Source: Actinoplanes regularis (GTDB lineage: Bacteria > Actinomycetota > Actinomycetes > Mycobacteriales > Micromonosporaceae). Taken from it: 64,000 bases of DNA. The notes beneath the pieces were generated by a model. The model was not told the origin of the DNA. It saw nothing but the letters and a program-made list of their open reading frames with translations, and did no database searches. This document shows, in pieces, positions 945-7,223 of the stretch (the stretch's first letter is position 1; every line of letters begins with the position of its first letter). Position numbers and translations under genes: made by a program. Where the stretch lies: assembly GCF_900188005.1 (NCBI RefSeq), contig NZ_FZNR01000016.1, positions 1 to 64,000 of the forward strand, read 5' to 3'.

Positions 945-2285
945 TCAGACGGGAATCGGCGTCGACGCCCGCCGGTTCGCCGGACGCGGCAGACCGTAGT
1001 GCTCGCGCAGCGTCCGCCCGGTGTATTCGGTCCGGAACAGACCCCGCTCCTGAAGGATCGGCACCACCAGGTCCACGAATTCGGTCAGGCCGGACGGCAA
1101 CACCGGCGGCATGATGTTGAACCCGTCCGCCGCACCGGCCTCGAACCATTCCTGGATCGCGTCCGCGACCTGGACCGGCGTACCGGCGAAGGTGAGATGC
1201 CCACGCCCGCCACCGAACCGGGCGATGATCTCCCGAACCGTCAGGTTCTCCCGGCGACCGAGTTTGACCAGCAGGGTGCGCCGACTCTTGTGCCCCTCCA
1301 GCTCATCCTCCTCCGGCAGGTTCGCGGGAAGCTGCTCGTCCAGCCGCAGTTCCTCCGGAGCGACCCCGAGCAGGTCGGCGAGCTGCGGCAACGCGTACTC
1401 GGGCCGGATCAGCCCGTTCAGGACGGCTTCCTTCTCCCGCGCCTCCGCCTCCGTCGAGCCGATGACCGGAACGATGCCCGGCAGGATCTTGACGTGGTCC
1501 GGATCCCGGCCGTGTTCGGCGGCGCGCCGCTTCAGGTCGTCGTAGAACTCCTGCGCGTCCGCGAGCGTCTGGTGCGCGGTGAACACGGCCTCCGCGTAGC
1601 GGGCGGCGAAGTTCCGTCCGTTCTCGGAGGAGCCGGCCTGGACCAGGACCGGGTGGCCCTGCGCGGAGCGCGGAACATTGAGCGCCCCGGCGACCCGGTA
1701 GAACCGGCCCTCGTGCTCCGGCGGGTAGATCTTGTCGGAGTCGCCCCAGACGCCGTTCTCCTTGTCGGCGAGCACGGCGTCGTCGGCCCAGGAGTCCCAG
1801 AGCTTGAGCGAGACGTCGACGAACTCGGCGGCGCGCTCGTAGCGCTCCTTGTGGGCGGGCAGGTGGTCGAGGTTGAAGTTGCGGGCCGCGTCCAGGCCCG
1901 CGGTGGTGACGATGTTCCAGCCGGCCCGGCCGCCGCTGACGATGTCCAGCGACGCGAAGCGCCGGGCCAGGTTGTACGGCTCGTTGTAGGTGGTGGAGGC
2001 GGTGGCGATCAGGCCGATCCGCTCGGTCGCCCCGGCCAGCGCGGTGAGCACGACGGTCGGTTCGAGGACGCCGGCGGGGCGGCGTCCGACCTGGTTCCAG
2101 AGCACCGGGCCGTCGGCGAGGAAGACCGAGTCGAGCTTTCCGCGTTCGGCGGTCCGGGCGAGGTTCTTGAAGTGCTCGACGTCGAGGTCGGCGTACGGGT
2201 CGGTCTCCGGGAGGCGCCAGGCGGCCTCGTGGTGCCCGACGCTCATCAGGAACGCGTTGAGGTGCAGTTGCCGCTTCGTGGTCAT
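945..2285 (-). CDS. NtaA/SnaA/DszA-type flavin monooxygenase (LLM class)
   Basis: This 446-residue protein matches the luciferase-like monooxygenases of the NtaA/SnaA/DszA/SfnG group, which use FMNH2 from a partner reductase to oxidise sulfur- or nitrogen-containing organics. Visible hallmarks are the start QLHLNAFLMSVGHHEAAWR, then SVFLADGP, SGGRAGWNIVTT and PVLVQAGSSENGR, and the length is normal for the group. It is the last gene of the sulfur operon, one base after the TauD-type gene, so translation is probably coupled. The context suggests C-S bond cleavage to free sulfite. The exact substrate is unknown, and no flavin reductase gene lies alongside. Confidence 0.88.
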   Translation of the reverse strand: MTTKRQLHLNAFLMSVGHHEAAWRLPETDPYADLDVEHFKNLARTAERGKLDSVFLADGPVLWNQVGRRPAGVLEPTVVLTALAGATERIGLIATASTTYNEPYNLARRFASLDIVSGGRAGWNIVTTAGLDAARNFNLDHLPAHKERYERAAEFVDVSLKLWDSWADDAVLADKENGVWGDSDKIYPPEHEGRFYRVAGALNVPRSAQGHPVLVQAGSSENGRNFAARYAEAVFTAHQTLADAQEFYDDLKRRAAEHGRDPDHVKILPGIVPVIGSTEAEAREKEAVLNGLIRPEYALPQLADLLGVAPEELRLDEQLPANLPEEDELEGHKSRRTLLVKLGRRENLTVREIIARFGGGRGHLTFAGTPVQVADAIQEWFEAGAADGFNIMPPVLPSGLTEFVDLVVPILQERGLFRTEYTGRTLREHYGLPRPANRRASTPIPV

Positions 2286-2286
2286 G

Positions 2287-3183
2287 TCACTGCACCCGCG
2301 GGGTGTAGTGGGTGGCCTCGTCGCCTTCGAGGATGTAGCTCTTCGTCCCGTCGACGCCGACCGGGATGTCGCCGGCCACGGTCACCCGGTGCAGCTTGCG
2401 GGCCAGGTCGCCGTAGTCGTCGGCGGCGTAGTGCTGGGTCGTGCGGTTGTCCCAGACCACCAGGTCGCCGACCTGCCACTTGTGCCGCAGGGTGTTCTCC
2501 GGGCGGGTGACGTAGTGCTGGAGCAGGCGCAGGATGTCCCGGGACTCGGTCCTGGAGAGACCGATGACGCCGGTCACGAAGTTGCCGATGAACAGGTTCG
2601 GCTCGCCGGAGTCCGGGTTGACCCGGACGACCGGGTGCGCGGTGCGGTACCGGGTGGAGACGAAGACCTTGTGGTACTCCTCGACCTCGGCGGAGCGGAA
2701 CTGCGGGTGCTCGGCGTAGTCGTACGCGTTGGAGTGCTCGGCCCACAGCCGGTCGGCCAGGACGCGCAGGTGTTCGGGCAGGTCCCGGTACGCGGCGGCG
2801 GTGTTGGCGAAGAGCGTGTCGCCGCCGTACTCCGGGATGACCAGGCTGCGCAGCGTGGTGGCCTTGGGCGGGGCGACCACGAAGGTGACGTCGGTGTGCC
2901 ACGCGTTGGCCCGGGCCCCCTCGGCGCCGGCCACCTCGAGCACGTTGGCCTGGCCGTCGACGGACGGGACGGTCGGGTGCGCGAGGGTCAGCTCGCCGAA
3001 GATCGAGGCGAAGCGCTGGTGCTGCTCGTCGTCCAGGTGTTGGTCGCGGAAGACCAGCACCTTGTGTTCGACCAGGGCGTCGTGGATCGCCTTCGCGTCC
3101 GTCTCGTCGACGGGAAGCTTGAGGTCGACGCCGGAGACCGTCGCTCCGATCCGCCCACCGAGGCGCTTGATGTCGATGCTCAT
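2287..3183 (-). CDS. TauD/AtsK-type Fe(II)/2-oxoglutarate dioxygenase
   Basis: A 298-residue taurine dioxygenase or alkylsulfatase family enzyme. The iron triad is visible: His96 and Asp98 in NAWHTDVTF and His251 in NRTTQHYA, with Arg266 in KLHRVTV to bind 2-oxoglutarate; spacing matches E. coli TauD (99, 101, 255, 270). Such enzymes hydroxylate the carbon next to a sulfonate or sulfate ester, releasing sulfite or sulfate. It sits between the transporter permease and the flavin monooxygenase in one transcription unit. Whether the substrate is taurine, another sulfonate or an alkyl sulfate cannot be told from sequence. Confidence 0.92.
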   Translation of the reverse strand: MSIDIKRLGGRIGATVSGVDLKLPVDETDAKAIHDALVEHKVLVFRDQHLDDEQHQRFASIFGELTLAHPTVPSVDGQANVLEVAGAEGARANAWHTDVTFVVAPPKATTLRSLVIPEYGGDTLFANTAAAYRDLPEHLRVLADRLWAEHSNAYDYAEHPQFRSAEVEEYHKVFVSTRYRTAHPVVRVNPDSGEPNLFIGNFVTGVIGLSRTESRDILRLLQHYVTRPENTLRHKWQVGDLVVWDNRTTQHYAADDYGDLARKLHRVTVAGDIPVGVDGTKSYILEGDEATHYTPRVQ

Positions 3184-3198: not shown

Positions 3199-3996
3199 TT
3201 AGTTGGTGCGCCAGGTCGAGAAGTGGCGCTCGGTGAGGATCAGGAGCTGGTTCACGATCAGGCCGATGCCGGAGATGGTGATGATTCCGGCGTACATCTC
3301 GGGGACCGCGAAGTTGAACTGCGCGTAGTTGATGAGGTAGCCCAGGCCGGCCTTGGCGCCGACCATCTCGGCGGCGATCAGGATCAGGATCGAGTACGCC
3401 CCGGCCAGGCGGATGCCGGTGAAGATGGTGGGCACCGCGGCGGGCAGGATCACCTTCTGGAACAGGCGCAGGGAGCCGAGGCCGAGCGAGCGCGCCGACT
3501 TGATCAGCAGCGGGTCGACGGTGCGGACGCCGCTGACCGTGTTGAGCAGGATGGGCCAGGCGCAGGCGTACAGGATGATCGCGATCTTGGAGGTTTCGCC
3601 GAGGCCCAGGATCAGCACGAAGACCGGCAGGATGGCCAGTGCGGCGGTGTTGCGGAAGACCTCGAGCAGCGGGCTGAGCAGGTTGGCGACCGGTTGGTAC
3701 CAGCCGATCAGCAGGCCGAGCGGGATGGCGACGGCGATCGCGAGACCGAAGCCGGCCAGCGAGCGGGTCAGGCTGGCCTGGGTGTGTTCGAGCAGTTCAC
3801 CCGAGCGCAGCAGGTCCCACCAGGCCACCAGGACCTCGGAGAGCGGCGGCAGGAAGGTCGAGTCGACCACGCCGAGCCGGGGGAGGGTCTCCCAGACGGC
3901 GGCGAGCAGCAGGATCCCGGCCGACTTGGTGATCGCGGACCGGAAGAACCGCCCCACCCGGATCGCCGGTACGGCCGGCAGGGAGATGCTAACCAC
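3199..3996 (-). CDS. ABC transporter permease, SsuC/TauC type
   Basis: A 265-residue inner-membrane permease with about six transmembrane helices and the binding-protein-dependent signature near EVFRNTAALAILPVFVLILG and the coupling loop around KSARSLGLGSLRLFQKVILP. It would pair with the ATPase encoded just upstream in the operon, whose 3' end it overlaps by eight bases. The GTG start at 3996 follows GGAGG. Family membership indicates sulfonate, taurine or nitrate import; the TauD and flavin monooxygenase neighbours favour organosulfur. Confidence 0.9.
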   Translation of the reverse strand: MVSISLPAVPAIRVGRFFRSAITKSAGILLLAAVWETLPRLGVVDSTFLPPLSEVLVAWWDLLRSGELLEHTQASLTRSLAGFGLAIAVAIPLGLLIGWYQPVANLLSPLLEVFRNTAALAILPVFVLILGLGETSKIAIILYACAWPILLNTVSGVRTVDPLLIKSARSLGLGSLRLFQKVILPAAVPTIFTGIRLAGAYSILILIAAEMVGAKAGLGYLINYAQFNFAVPEMYAGIITISGIGLIVNQLLILTERHFSTWRTN

Positions 3997-4777
3997 GGGA
4001 GGCCTCCAGTTCCTGGTTGCGGGCCCGGCTGACCTCGTCGCGCAGCAGGCTCCAGATCTCGTGCCGGTAGTGCGCGAACTCCGGGTCGGAGCGCAGGTCC
4101 TCGGTGGCCGACCGGGCGTCGATCGGCACGTCCACGACCTGCTTGATCCGTCCGGGGCGGGACGTCATCACGGCGACCCGCTGTCCCAGGTAGACGGCCT
4201 CCTCGATGCCGTGGGTGATGAAGACGACGGTCTTGCCGGTCTTCTCCCAGATCTTCAGCAGCTCGTCCTGCAGCCCGTCGCGGGTCTGCGCGTCGAGGGC
4301 GGCGAACGGCTCGTCCATGAGCAGCACGTCCGGGTCGAAGGCGAGGCTGCGGGCGATGGCGACGCGCTGTTTCATGCCGCCGGAGAGCTCGTGCGGGTAG
4401 CGGTCGTGGAAGCCGGCGAGGCCGACCAGATCCAGGTATTCGCGGGCCCGTTCGGCGCGCTCGCGGCGGGGCACCCGCTTGGCTTCCAGGCCGAACTCGA
4501 CGTTGCCCTGGGCGGTGCGCCACGGGAGGAGGGCGTACTGCTGGAAGACCACGCCGCGGTCCAGGCCGGGGCCGGTGACCGGCTCCCCGTCGACCAGGAT
4601 CCGGCCGCTGGTCGGTTCGGCGAGGCCGCCGAGCAGGTCGAGCAGGGTGGACTTGCCGCAGCCGCTGGGCCCGACGATGACCAGGAACTCGCCCTCCTGC
4701 ACCGACAGGTCGACACCCTGGAGAGCGGTCACGCCGCGGAACTTCTTACCGACGTTGTCGAAGACGATCTTCATCAT
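3989..4777 (-). CDS. ABC transporter ATP-binding protein, SsuB/TauB type
   Basis: A 262-residue ATPase with all motifs: Walker A GPSGCGKST, signature LSGGMKQR, Walker B VLLMDEPFAALD and switch histidine FITHGIEEA. It energises the permease downstream. Two adjacent ATG codons (4777 and 4774) are possible starts; the first overlaps the stop of the binding-protein gene, so the three transporter genes form a translationally coupled chain. Confidence 0.92.
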   Translation of the reverse strand: MMKIVFDNVGKKFRGVTALQGVDLSVQEGEFLVIVGPSGCGKSTLLDLLGGLAEPTSGRILVDGEPVTGPGLDRGVVFQQYALLPWRTAQGNVEFGLEAKRVPRRERAERAREYLDLVGLAGFHDRYPHELSGGMKQRVAIARSLAFDPDVLLMDEPFAALDAQTRDGLQDELLKIWEKTGKTVVFITHGIEEAVYLGQRVAVMTSRPGRIKQVVDVPIDARSATEDLRSDPEFAHYRHEIWSLLRDEVSRARNQELEASRG

Positions 4778-5796
4778 GCCGCACCGCCGGCGGCCGCGTT
4801 GTACTGGTTGGTGAAGAGGTCAGTGGCCTTGACGTCCTTGCCCTTGAGCTCGCCGGTCCCGTTCAGCCACTCGATCCAGGTGCTGAACTCCTTCTCGGCG
4901 ATCACGCCGCCCTTGCCGTTGACCCCGTAGCTCTTCCAGTACTGCAGCTGGCTGTCGTCCTCGTTGCGGGCCCGCTTCTTGAGGATCTCCCGGAACCGCT
5001 CGATGACCTGCTCCCGCGGCGTGCTGCGGGACCAGTCGAGGGCCTTGCCGACGCCGGTGACGAAGGTCTTGACGGTGTCCGGGTTCTTCTTGATGAAGTC
5101 GTCGCGCAGCACGTAGCTGCCGGCGGTGAACGGTCCGAGCAGCTCGAAGTCGGTGTAGAGCGGGTGGATGCCGCCGTGATCGAGGGCCTTGTCGCGCAGG
5201 GTGCCGCTGAGCGCGGCCACGTCGATCTGCTTCTGCCGCAGCGACTGCTCGGTGTTCACCGGCGGCACCACGACCAGCTCGACCTGGGCGATCTCGTCGG
5301 GGGTGAGGCCGGCCCGGGTCAGGTAGGTCTTGGTGATCGCCTCGGAGTGCGCCCCCAGAGTGTTGACGCCGATCTTCTTGCCGATCAGGTCCCGGGCGGT
5401 CTTGATCGGGCTGCCGTCGAGCACGAAGTAGCCGATGTAGCTGTCCTTGTCGACGCCGTAGTAGCCGACCACCGCCGTGATCGGCGCCCGGTTCGCGGAG
5501 AGCTTGACGATCGCGCCGTTGAACGCGCCGCCGAAGTCGATGTCGCCGGTGGTGGCAGCCTGGATGTCCTGTGGGCCGGAGATCGTGTTGCCGATCCACT
5601 TGAGCTTCACGTCGCCGAGGTAGCCGAGGTCCTCGGCGAGCTCGGCCGGCGTCACGGTGCCCACGCTGCCCTGATATCGCAGCTCGGTGGCCTGCTTGCC
5701 GGAGGCTGCGGCGTCACCGTCGCCGCATGCGGAGAGTCCGGCGGCGGTGAGGACCGCGGCGCCGAAGAGGGCGAGGGCGGATCGGCGGGTGGTCAT
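4774..5796 (-). CDS. Sulfonate/taurine-type ABC substrate-binding lipoprotein (SsuA-like)
   Basis: A 340-residue extracytoplasmic binding protein of the SsuA/TauA/NMT1 fold. The N-terminus is a lipoprotein signal (RRSALALFGAAVLTAAG then lipobox LSAC, Cys24), with the mature protein starting at a low-complexity GDGDAAASG linker. The ATG at 5796 is preferred over an upstream in-frame ATG at 5817 because GAGGAG lies six bases before it. It captures the substrate for the neighbouring permease and ATPase. It is the first enzyme-sized gene after the cysteine leader peptide, 161 bases downstream of the leader's stop. Confidence 0.9.
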   Translation of the reverse strand: MTTRRSALALFGAAVLTAAGLSACGDGDAAASGKQATELRYQGSVGTVTPAELAEDLGYLGDVKLKWIGNTISGPQDIQAATTGDIDFGGAFNGAIVKLSANRAPITAVVGYYGVDKDSYIGYFVLDGSPIKTARDLIGKKIGVNTLGAHSEAITKTYLTRAGLTPDEIAQVELVVVPPVNTEQSLRQKQIDVAALSGTLRDKALDHGGIHPLYTDFELLGPFTAGSYVLRDDFIKKNPDTVKTFVTGVGKALDWSRSTPREQVIERFREILKKRARNEDDSQLQYWKSYGVNGKGGVIAEKEFSTWIEWLNGTGELKGKDVKATDLFTNQYNAAAGGAA

Positions 5797-5802
5797 GGTG
5801 AG

Positions 5803-5848
5803 CTCCTCAGGGGTCATCGGACGGCCGCCAGCGGCGGTCGCCGAGAAG
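5803..5848 (-). promoter_or_regulatory. Possible Shine-Dalgarno sequestering helix before the binding-protein gene
   Basis: On the minus-strand transcript CUUCUC (5843-5848) can pair completely, with one G-U, with the GAGGAG ribosome site (5803-5808) of the binding-protein gene. A small CCGCC/GGCGG hairpin lies between them. This would allow the translation state of the upstream leader peptide to control access to the ribosome site. It is a paper fold only. Confidence 0.3.
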
Positions 5849-5957
5849 AAAGATCGGAAAATGCGGATTTGTGTACGGCCACAGCGAGGTAGACGCGGCT
5901 GGGGCTGTACGGAGGTGTCCAGGGCGGCGGGGGGCGGAGCGCTTCGCCGTCAGACGC

Positions 5958-6029
5958 TCAACAGGCGCAGGTGCACACCCGGAGGTAGTCGACGAAGCGG
6001 CGGCGCGTGAGGCGCTTGTCTCGCTTCAT
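5958..6029 (-). CDS. Cysteine-rich leader peptide (attenuator uORF)
   Basis: A 23-codon ORF starting ATG at 6029 and ending TGA at 5958. It carries the conserved core LTRRRFVDYLR followed by CTCAC at the C-terminus, so three of the last five codons are cysteine. Actinobacterial leader peptides of this pattern precede sulfur-assimilation genes, where ribosome stalling at Cys codons signals cysteine shortage. The -10 hexamer TACGTT ends seven bases before the ATG, so the message is predicted to be leaderless, with transcription starting at or next to the A. It lies 161 bases upstream of the binding-protein gene of the organosulfur operon. Confidence 0.85.
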   Translation of the reverse strand: MKRDKRLTRRRFVDYLRVCTCAC

Positions 6030-6036
6030 GCCTAGA

Positions 6037-6065
6037 AACGTAAACGGCCTACGACGTCACGTCAG
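6037..6065 (-). promoter_or_regulatory. Promoter of the sulfur operon
   Basis: On the minus strand CTGACG (-35, 6060-6065) and TACGTT (-10, 6037-6042) are separated by 17 bases, an acceptable actinobacterial housekeeping promoter. The start point predicted seven to eight bases downstream coincides with the ATG of the leader peptide. Confidence 0.6.
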
Positions 6066-6071
6066 TACCTT

Positions 6072-6087
6072 TGTGACCCAGGTCACA
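6072..6087. promoter_or_regulatory. CRP/FNR-family operator TGTGA-N6-TCACA
   Basis: TGTGACCCAGGTCACA is a perfect 7-bp inverted repeat with a two-base centre and matches the CRP/GlxR consensus exactly. Its centre is about 50 bases upstream of the predicted transcription start, immediately before the -35, which suits an activator. No CRP-family gene is in the window. Confidence 0.65.
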
Positions 6088-6150
6088 TACATTTCCCATA
6101 GGGTGAGTGGGATATGGCGCACGGATCGGCTATGACCTGCGAAAACACGA

Positions 6151-6182
6151 AAGGGCGGGAGCGCACGTGCGCTCCCGCCCTT
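6151..6182 (-). terminator. Strong hairpin terminator of the Spo0M-like gene
   Basis: A 32-base perfect palindrome: AAGGGCGGGAGCGCAC at 6151-6166 followed by its exact complement to 6182. On the minus strand it is followed by TTTCGTGTTTTC, a T-rich tract. It lies 15 bases after the Spo0M-like stop codon. Confidence 0.85.
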
Positions 6183-6197
6183 GTCAGCTTTTTACCG

Positions 6198-7223
6198 TCA
6201 GTCGTCGCCGAAGTCCTCGAAGACCTCTTCCATCGCCTCGCCGATCACGTAGCCGGCCGCCAGGCCACCCACCGCGCCGAGAACCGCGCCGCCCATGCCG
6301 CTGCCGTGCCCACCGCGGTAGTGGCCGTGGTGGCCATACCCGTGACCGCCGTGGTGGCCGCCGTGGCCGTAACCGGGCGGGGGCGGCGGCGGGTAGCCGG
6401 GAGCGCCGTACGCACCGTGGCCGGGAGCGCCGTAGCCCGGGCGGGACTTGTGCCGGTCGACCGCCTGGCGGACCCAGCCGTCGACCACGGAACGCCAGTC
6501 GGTGGTCTCCGCGTCCTGGTGCGCGACCGTGTAGCGCCCGTAGGTGTCGTGGCCGCTGTGCAGCAGGCCGCCGCGCTTGTCGAACTCCAGCACCACCTCG
6601 ACCTGGTGCGGGCTGGTCACGAACGTCAGCTCGACCTCGTTGACGGAGTGCGCGTACTGCGGGGCGGGCCAGTACTCGATCTCCTGGTAGAACGGGAGGG
6701 TCTGGTGGACGCCGTAGATCTGCCCGTGCTCCAGGTCGGCCGACTTGAAGCGGAACCCGAGCTGGCCGAACGCGTCCATGATCTTCTGCTGGATCGGCAG
6801 CGGGTGGACGTAGACCGGGTCGAGGTCGCCCTTGTCCAGCGCCCGGGCGATGGAGACCTCGGTGCGCACACCCATCACCATGCCGCGCAGCGGCTGCCCG
6901 TACGCCGTGGTGATCGGGGTCTCCCACGGCATGTCGATGCGGAACGGGATGGACATCTGCTGACCCGGGTGGATCCGCGTCGGCCCGGCCACGGTGATCC
7001 GGTAGAAGTCGCCGGTGGCCGAGTAGTCACCGCCGCCGCCCTCCACCTCCATCCGGGTGACCAGGGCGAGCGTGATGTGCTCGATGTCCGCTTCCTGCGT
7101 GCCGCCGGTCAGGTTGACCTGGCCGGTCAGCGGTGCGCCCGGATAGGTGCTCGGGTTGGCCAGCACGGTATCGACGCTCGGACCGCCGACTCCGAGGGCG
7201 CCCAGCAACTTCTTGAAGACCAC
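6198..7223 (-). CDS. spo0M: Spo0M-like arrestin-fold sporulation protein
   Basis: A 341-residue protein with a SpoOM domain over roughly residues 1-235, recognisable from FKKLLGALGVGGPSVDTVL, PGQQMSIPFRIDMPWETPI and QKIMDAFGQLGFRFKSADLE. The last 90 residues are a Gly/Tyr/Pro/His-rich tail with repeated GHHG and GHGG units and a small hydrophobic Gly-rich end. Spo0M proteins are arrestin-like scaffold proteins linked to sporulation and cell division; the exact job is unsettled. The GTG start at 7223 follows GGAGAGG. It stands as a single transcription unit with its own terminator. The His-rich tail could bind metal. Confidence 0.88.
   Translation of the reverse strand: MVFKKLLGALGVGGPSVDTVLANPSTYPGAPLTGQVNLTGGTQEADIEHITLALVTRMEVEGGGGDYSATGDFYRITVAGPTRIHPGQQMSIPFRIDMPWETPITTAYGQPLRGMVMGVRTEVSIARALDKGDLDPVYVHPLPIQQKIMDAFGQLGFRFKSADLEHGQIYGVHQTLPFYQEIEYWPAPQYAHSVNEVELTFVTSPHQVEVVLEFDKRGGLLHSGHDTYGRYTVAHQDAETTDWRSVVDGWVRQAVDRHKSRPGYGAPGHGAYGAPGYPPPPPPGYGHGGHHGGHGYGHHGHYRGGHGSGMGGAVLGAVGGLAAGYVIGEAMEEVFEDFGDD

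Follow-up and report, generated by a model that had tools for sequence, protein, structure and literature searches.

Attenuators of the trpL type carry codons of the regulated amino acid in their leaders, and arrest peptides such as TnaC and SecM carry conserved residues before the position of the stall. In mycobacteria, cysteine-rich leaderless upstream ORFs (uORFs) are found (Shell 2015, PMC4633059), and mycobacterial uORFs have been cited as cysteine-responsive attenuators (Canestrari 2020, as quoted in PMC9031893 and PMC13236596). The available excerpts of these three papers provide the precedent for the statement, made in an earlier note on the DNA studied here, that cysteine-rich leaders act as attenuators in actinobacteria. 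As far as the published excerpts describe them, the mycobacterial polycysteine attenuators Ms5788A and Ms4527A share a leaderless start, Cys codons near the stop codon and sulfur genes on the 3' side.

We analysed a 64,000-nucleotide stretch of Actinoplanes regularis DNA (contig NZ_FZNR01000016.1), hereafter referred to as the window, and found a leader with sequence features of this kind on its minus strand (Table 1). The 23-codon ORF with the C-terminal residues CTCAC and the -10 box 7 nt before its ATG, both described in the earlier note, were confirmed; the ORF (6029-5958, minus strand) ended in Cys-Thr-Cys-Ala-Cys-stop, and the box was placed for transcription to start at the ATG itself. 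The ORF is short, its Cys codons are close to the stop, and a sulfur-type gene follows 3' of it on the same strand. Judged from these features of its sequence, the window leader is a member of the known Cys-rich leaderless attenuators of actinobacteria. What is new here is a UGU codon fixed nine codons after the Asp of an RxxVD motif (position D+9), though UGC dominates these genomes. The comparisons strongly support the earlier proposal of a cysteine-sensing leader controlling an organosulfur-type operon. The leader very probably measures cysteine supply, and it is likely to be a ribosome-read cysteine sensor that governs the operon by means of the fixed UGU codon and the nascent peptide.

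Table 1. Features of the leader region and of the operon in the window.
Feature	Position	Strand	Basis
Conserved upstream block CTATGGGAAATGTATGTG, possible operator	6084..6101	(-)	genus loci
-35-like CTGACG, spacer of 17 nt to the -10 box	6060..6065	(-)	by eye
-10 box TACGTT, 7 nt 5' of ATG	6037..6042	(-)	window sequence and class A leaders
Leader ORF MKRDKRLTRRRFVDYLRVCTCAC, 23 codons plus TGA	5958..6029	(-)	ORF read from window
Codon 19, Cys TGC	5973..5975	(-)	class A leaders
Codon 21, Cys TGC	5967..5969	(-)	class A leaders
Codon 23, Cys TGT, fixed UGU at D+9	5961..5963	(-)	codon counts (class A, class B, class-wide)
Possible hairpin H1, codons 16-19 with 21-24 plus one base	5957..5984	(-)	91.7% of cells paired
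Post-stop GACGGCGAAGC, complementary (one mismatch, by eye) to codons 11-14	5941..5951	(-)	genus conservation
CUUCUC of the earlier note	5843..5848	(-)	window sequence; 2/22 genus spacers
GAGGAG ribosome-binding site of first operon gene	5803..5808	(-)	window sequence
Substrate-binding protein, NMT1/SsuA type, lipoprotein-like	4774..5796	(-)	PF09084 4.6e-19; TIGR01728 2.7e-18, under cut-off
ABC transporter ATPase, taurine/nitrate type	3989..4777	(-)	family matches
ABC transporter permease	3199..3996	(-)	family matches
TauD-family dioxygenase	2287..3183	(-)	PF02668 5.9e-62
NtaA/DmoA-family FMN monooxygenase	945..2285	(-)	TIGR03860 559.7 bits, above cut-off

All genes of the operon lay on the strand of the leader, with a gap of 161 nt between the leader and the binding-protein gene. 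Judged by family matches, these genes serve the uptake and cleavage of organosulfur compounds, and the matches bore out the organosulfur-type set of transporter, dioxygenase and monooxygenase that had been placed after the leader. The narrower claim of sulfonate scavenging draws on family matches, of which those of the binding protein fell under the curated cut-offs. Because this protein scored below the cut-offs of the sulfonate/taurine models, the matches reach the organosulfur level and not the exact substrate.

The proposed leaderless start was strongly supported by sequence comparison. A TANNNT box was present 6-8 nt before the ATG in 53/53 leaders of class A, defined as leaders of 23 aa ending in Cys-stop across the family (6 nt in 26, 7 nt in 23 and 8 nt in 4), and among the 932 ATGs of the window, four had such a box at a spacing of 7 and six at a spacing of 6 or 7. 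A generic sigma-70 scan, which is tuned to the E. coli consensus, returned no promoter in 5700-6250. By eye, CTGAC was also recognized 5' of the leaders in genus relatives, and the CTGACG of the window leader fits nTGACn, a promoter element of S. lividans according to the available excerpt of PMC8079986. We also observed a strong 14-pair hairpin at 6151-6182 (minus strand), 3' of a Spo0M-like gene (6198-7223, minus strand); it is probably the terminator of that gene and sets the gene apart from the promoter of the leader.

Upstream of the leader promoter, a block ACTCACyCTATGGGAAATGTATGTG...CTGGGTCACAAA was shared by the window and the loci L005, L008-L011 and L013-L016, and it persisted where the leader was lost. 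This block is perhaps the binding site of a regulator. A wider regulon was not supported, as the source genome contained one site with up to three mismatches and the reversed control also gave one. A related CTATGGGATAT was located 5' of a cysteine dioxygenase leader (L066).

Within the genus, the binding-protein gene was present in 25 of 67 genomes (E <= 1e-60), and a 23-codon leader of the same kind was located on the same strand 5' of this gene in 22 of the 25, at a distance of 98-201 nt apart from one case of 314 nt. Of the 42 genomes lacking the gene, one (G025) carried the leader according to a profile of 13 leader peptides (E < 1e-6), and there it preceded a flavin reductase gene. The association between leader and gene had p=1.8e-13 (Fisher test on hand-entered counts, kinship uncorrected). 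A comparison of the leader across Actinoplanes genomes had been suggested in the earlier note, and its outcome was that the leader is kept together with the gene. By organism, 16 loci taken from another collection belonged to Actinoplanes, Amorphoplanes, Couchioplanes, Jidongwangia, Micromonospora and two metagenome bins. Three genomes, G046 (L008), G065 (L013) and G041 (L014), had no leader ORF and kept the upstream block, the -10 box, the binding-protein gene and part of the spacer; since promoter and gene were retained in these natural deletions, the leader is a removable part. In G056 and G061, the tail contained one Cys codon only, the last, which was UGU, and therefore no run of Cys codons is needed.

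The leaders that we read were a part of the family profile matches, the remaining ones being mostly of a second type, class B, which matched at profile positions 7-23. Class A comprised 53 leaders with 50 distinct DNA sequences; L093 (longer C-terminus), L029, L030 and the class B type were left out, and L099 and L106 gave no ORF. In the 53 leaders, L7, R10, R11, D14, V18 and C23 were invariant, R10 was spelled by five synonymous codons, and codon 17 (D+3) encoded Arg in 46. The tails varied among CTCAC, CSCTC, CSSAC, SSSTC and ASGTC, with one to three Cys codons. We refer to leaders with RxxVD, usually Arg at D+3, and Cys at D+9 as the RxxVD superfamily, a name coined here, and the window leader belongs to it with R10, V13, D14, R17 and C23. 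Codons 16-18 were held as CTC CGG GTG (37/40, 38/43 and 47/50, against genome shares of 0.35, 0.46 and 0.41), and this bias suggests a role at the RNA level in this region. The fixed UGU codon, the RxxVD peptide and the sister leaders in the same genome all go beyond the earlier note.

Codon 23 was TGT in 53/53 class A leaders. In contrast, codon 21, when it encoded Cys, was TGC in 27/27, and codon 19 was TGC in 39 and TGT in 9. The equivalent Cys of class B was TGT in 16/16 distinct loci (L063 and L115 are one locus, counted once). We also collected a class-wide set from the best-scoring matches of the NCBIfam model NF042934, namely 30 loci and, from the 85 rows that followed, 80 more, and 109 of these 110 were parsed (L132 was not). 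As evident from these best-scoring leaders, all distinct, the Cys nine codons after the Asp was TGT in 109/109, across about 20 families and 40 genera (hand tally) and including polycysteine leaders from a family of the same order. Cys codons before D+9 were TGC in 113 cases and TGT in 13, those 3' of D+9 were mixed (8 TGT and 5 TGC at the next position), and a separate count of the last Cys of each leader, which is another position than D+9, gave 17 TGT and 12 TGC. Other fixed residues varied in codon among the 109 leaders, with five codons for Arg at D-4, GAC/GAT at 83/26 for Asp and six codons for Arg at D+3. These residues are partly imposed by the search, but the UGU is not, because the leaders were found with a protein model, which is blind to codon choice. 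The TGT share of Cys codons was 15% in the window genes (44 ORFs chosen by composition) and 21% (28/132) in the flanking ORFs of the 30 class loci.

A second entry to these leaders started from the genes behind them. Rhodanese and sulfite reductase genes were searched in 79 class genomes each, and the best 30 loci were taken for each gene; several of the leaders obtained overlap with the 109, so this check is an independent entry and not an independent sample. For the rhodanese genes, 28/30 upstream regions contained an RxxVDxxR ORF whose -10 box was spaced as for a leaderless start. D+9 was TGT in 27 of these and TGC in one, the polycysteine leader L237, which has TGT at D+7. For the sulfite reductase genes, 21/30 upstream regions contained the motif ORF, with a -10 box at the start chosen by the script in just one; four of these ORFs were located beyond 700 nt and perhaps belong to other genes. 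TGT stood at D+9 in 19 of the 21, and the other two had one extra residue and TGT at D+10. In total, TGT was located exactly at D+9 in 46/49 leaders, and the opposite strand of the same 60 stretches, used as a control, showed the motif at 4 loci and a -10 box or a Cys at D+9 at none. Local RNA structure does not account for the UGU, as the third base had a mean pairing of 0.55 and the effect of a U-to-C change was ordinary (-0.41 compared with -0.31 kcal/mol for other U-to-C changes, p=0.07). The bases around the UGU differed between leader types, and the following base was C or T in 103/109.

In the excerpts of the literature that were searched, we met no rule of a UGU at a fixed position, and Canestrari 2020 may contain one; according to the available excerpt of PMC9094748, cysteine-rich sORFs may be subject to a constraint on their codon choice. 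If the UGU occupied the A site, the conserved residues Arg, Asp and Arg would lie about 13, 9 and 6 residues back. Known arrest peptides contact the exit tunnel at such distances behind the A site. Additionally, a single Cys tRNA with the anticodon GCA reads UGC by Watson-Crick pairing and UGU by wobble, and UGU should be the slower of the two. These points suggest a single sensor codon that keeps register with the conserved nascent chain. We tentatively consider a stricter reading, which we hold to be possible at somewhat less than even chances, that these leaders are codon-registered arrest peptides and not sensors of a Cys run. The RxxVDxxR chain would prime a stop at the D+9 codon, which would have to be UGU because wobble reading is most sensitive to tRNA charging; the other Cys codons would be optional, with the earlier ones mostly kept as fast UGC. 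If this reading is true, one peptide-plus-codon device runs sulfur control class-wide, single-Cys leaders included. The UGU rule also offers a sharp test, since a response altered by UGU to UGC alone would mean that the switch is set by the reading of a single codon and not by cysteine content.

The leader profile matched 74 of 354 family genomes (E <= 1e-5) and 6 of 394 genomes in a class sample, with the source genome among them. The 109 leaders read from the matches of NF042934, a model of a putative cis-regulatory attenuator leader peptide (cis_reg_atten), have the RxxVD motif and the UGU position in common with the window leader. At E <= 0.001, the model matched 171 of 246 class genomes, and none of 14 control genomes was matched; at a loose E of 10, 10 of the 14 control genomes also had matches, none above the cut-off. 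The window leader scored 13.2 bits with this model (cut-off 27), and in the genome search it reached 10.9 bits (E 7.7), with chance-like matches scoring higher. Therefore, the current model misses this branch of leaders. The models named after mycobacterial attenuators also matched the window leader weakly, with 14.4 bits for NF042933 and 17.7 bits for NF042936 (cut-offs 45). The source genome contained a sister leader, MSLLLTKRRAVDLCRMAACLCRPVN, before a rhodanese gene (32.8 bits, above the cut-off), and a second one ending in RRHVDYGRVFSAMCPAS before a sulfite reductase gene (17.1 bits, under the cut-off).

Twenty downstream proteins were tested, 16 of them behind class A leaders; L073, L074, L083 and L087 were excluded, as the chosen downstream genes were doubtful or cut. 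Class A leaders preceded NMT1-type binding proteins (4), family 5 binding proteins (2), NIL-domain ATPases (2), DUF1684 proteins (2) and, as single cases, a flavin reductase, a cysteine dioxygenase, an FAD-binding protein, an acyl-CoA-dehydrogenase-like protein, a carbonic-anhydrase-like protein and a permease. Besides the rhodanese and the sulfite reductase, the remaining four included a family 3 binding protein and an FMN reductase, the latter behind L093 with its longer leader. A sulfur function is plausible for several of the twenty, and others have no evident sulfur role. We also observed leaders before DUF1684 proteins at L071 and L082 (called by Pfam) and at L072, L076, L077 and L081 (called by N-terminal similarity), which hints that the DUF1684 family may have a sulfur role; such leaders may tag genes of unknown role, for example DUF1684 in Micromonosporaceae, as possibly sulfur-linked. 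Class B leaders LTRRRHVDMMRVCSAAC (L063-L065 and L102-L119 except L106 and L112-L114) stood mostly before family 3 binding proteins (N-terminal similarity; one tested). Several of them seem to have a GGAG-like ribosome site of their own, and therefore the class B type may not be leaderless.

We infer the transcription start, the stall, the response to cysteine and the switching step as follows. RNA polymerase would start at or beside the A of the ATG, and ribosomes would bind to the leaderless 5' end, where they begin to translate RRRFVDYLRVCTCAC. With ample Cys-tRNA, they would finish and leave, and the downstream RNA would hold the operon low. When Cys-tRNA is scarce, a ribosome would halt at the Cys codons. 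The most likely site is the last of these codons, the fixed UGU, which the same tRNA reads by wobble, and the conserved RxxVD peptide in the exit tunnel would help to set the stop. The stalled ribosome would then alter the folding of the spacer or the access of Rho. This would allow expression of the whole operon from the binding-protein gene onwards, and sulfur would be drawn from organosulfur compounds.

For the switching step, the earlier note had proposed that CUUCUC pairs with GAGGAG and hides the ribosome-binding site. Both sequences are present in the window, but CTTCTC was found in just 2 of 22 genus spacers (L054, with another downstream gene, was excluded), and this helix was therefore not supported as a conserved element. 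Single-sequence folding with ribosome masks gave no consistent support for a stalled ribosome unmasking the site, as the mean predicted openness in the 22 genus members was 0.30 in the free state and became 0.32 when the stall was set at codon 19, 0.31 when it was set at codon 23 and 0.27 for a ribosome at the stop codon. The corresponding values for the window sequence were 0.20, 0.25, 0.13 and 0.02; the predicted rise at codon 19 is in the expected direction, but it is not general and does not favour codon 23. Since exposure was not consistent and the pairing was not conserved, the switching step is treated here as a proposed one. In the stop state of the window leader, folding paired CCUC of codons 15-16 with GAGG, which makes this a better candidate than CUUCUC; codons 15-19 paired with the ribosome-binding site by more than two pairs in 6 of 22 genus members. 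In the possible hairpin H1, 91.7% of cells were paired over 41 distinct sequences, compared with 34-58% when the arms were slid. No covariation was detected, as there was no compensatory change and no excess over shuffles; the input consisted of 43 class A leaders out of 53, 41 of them distinct. Ten sequences were omitted from this test because codon 16 encoded Gln (nine) or Val (one), and the Gln-16 type, which has a different pairing at the base of H1, was counted only. RNAalifold predicted no structure for all 53 class A leaders with 45 nt downstream and one structure, containing H1, for the genus subset. GACGGC occurred within 18 nt after the stop codon in 22/22 genus members, where it can pair with codons 11-14, and GACGGCGAAG occurred in 16/22 spacers. 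Rfam gave 0 matches at the gathering score within the window.

The leader could act as proposed and still exert its output through Rho-dependent termination in a C-rich, G-poor spacer, blocked by the stalled ribosome or by refolding of the RNA. The genus spacers averaged 0.43 C and 0.29 G, with C above G in 21/22, compared with 0.35 and 0.31 in 44 control upstream stretches, although composition by itself shows no Rho site and the control ORFs were chosen by composition and not by annotation. The C-G difference of the window spacer was reached by 3 of the 44 controls. No intrinsic-terminator-like site was found between the leader and the first gene, the sole match (6182-6151) lying 5' of the leader; a trpL-type attenuator with a GC hairpin and a U run was thereby rejected for this interval. 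Rho was proposed, as a weak prediction, for mycobacterial cys leaders (Seliverstov 2005, PMC1262725, available excerpt), whereas translation attenuation is cited for the cysteine genes of M. smegmatis in the excerpt of a 2026 paper (PMC13236596). The C-rich spacers therefore keep Rho a live rival, which we regard as possible but rather unlikely; between the two candidates for the switching step, we somewhat favour a masked ribosome-binding site.

Two further explanations would remove the sensor itself. If the operon were regulated by the promoter and the upstream operator alone, the leader would be a relic, in line with the persistence of the upstream block in G041, G046 and G065; this is very unlikely given an intact leader in 22/25 genomes and the strong constraint on codons 16-18 and 23. 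Alternatively, the ORF could encode a small Cys-rich peptide acting in trans on metal or redox, with its position before the operon reflecting plain co-transcription. Peptide positions are indeed conserved with synonymous change at R3, L7 and R10, but the number (3 to 1) and position of the tail Cys residues vary, the last Cys is conserved as a single codon beyond residue identity, and such leaders stand before many different genes, which makes a peptide of this kind very improbable. We therefore retain the ribosome-read cysteine sensor as the preferred reading.

Compared with Ms5788A and Ms4527A, as their published excerpts describe them, the window leader has 23 aa and runs as C-x-C-x-C to the stop codon in place of a Cys run, and it precedes an SsuA/TauD/DmoA-type operon, so that cysteine attenuation would extend to an organosulfur-scavenging operon in the Actinoplanes group. 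The cys leaders of Seliverstov 2005 (PMC1262725) are likewise short ORFs with Cys codons near the stop codon and no terminator; they belong to other genera and genes, and no peptide or UGU rule was met in the available excerpt. The window leader differs from the trpL type in having no terminator hairpin. Like TnaC and SecM, it has conserved residues ahead of the codon at which the stall is proposed, at a distance of about 6-13 positions, whereas the arrest itself is proposed here from sequence.
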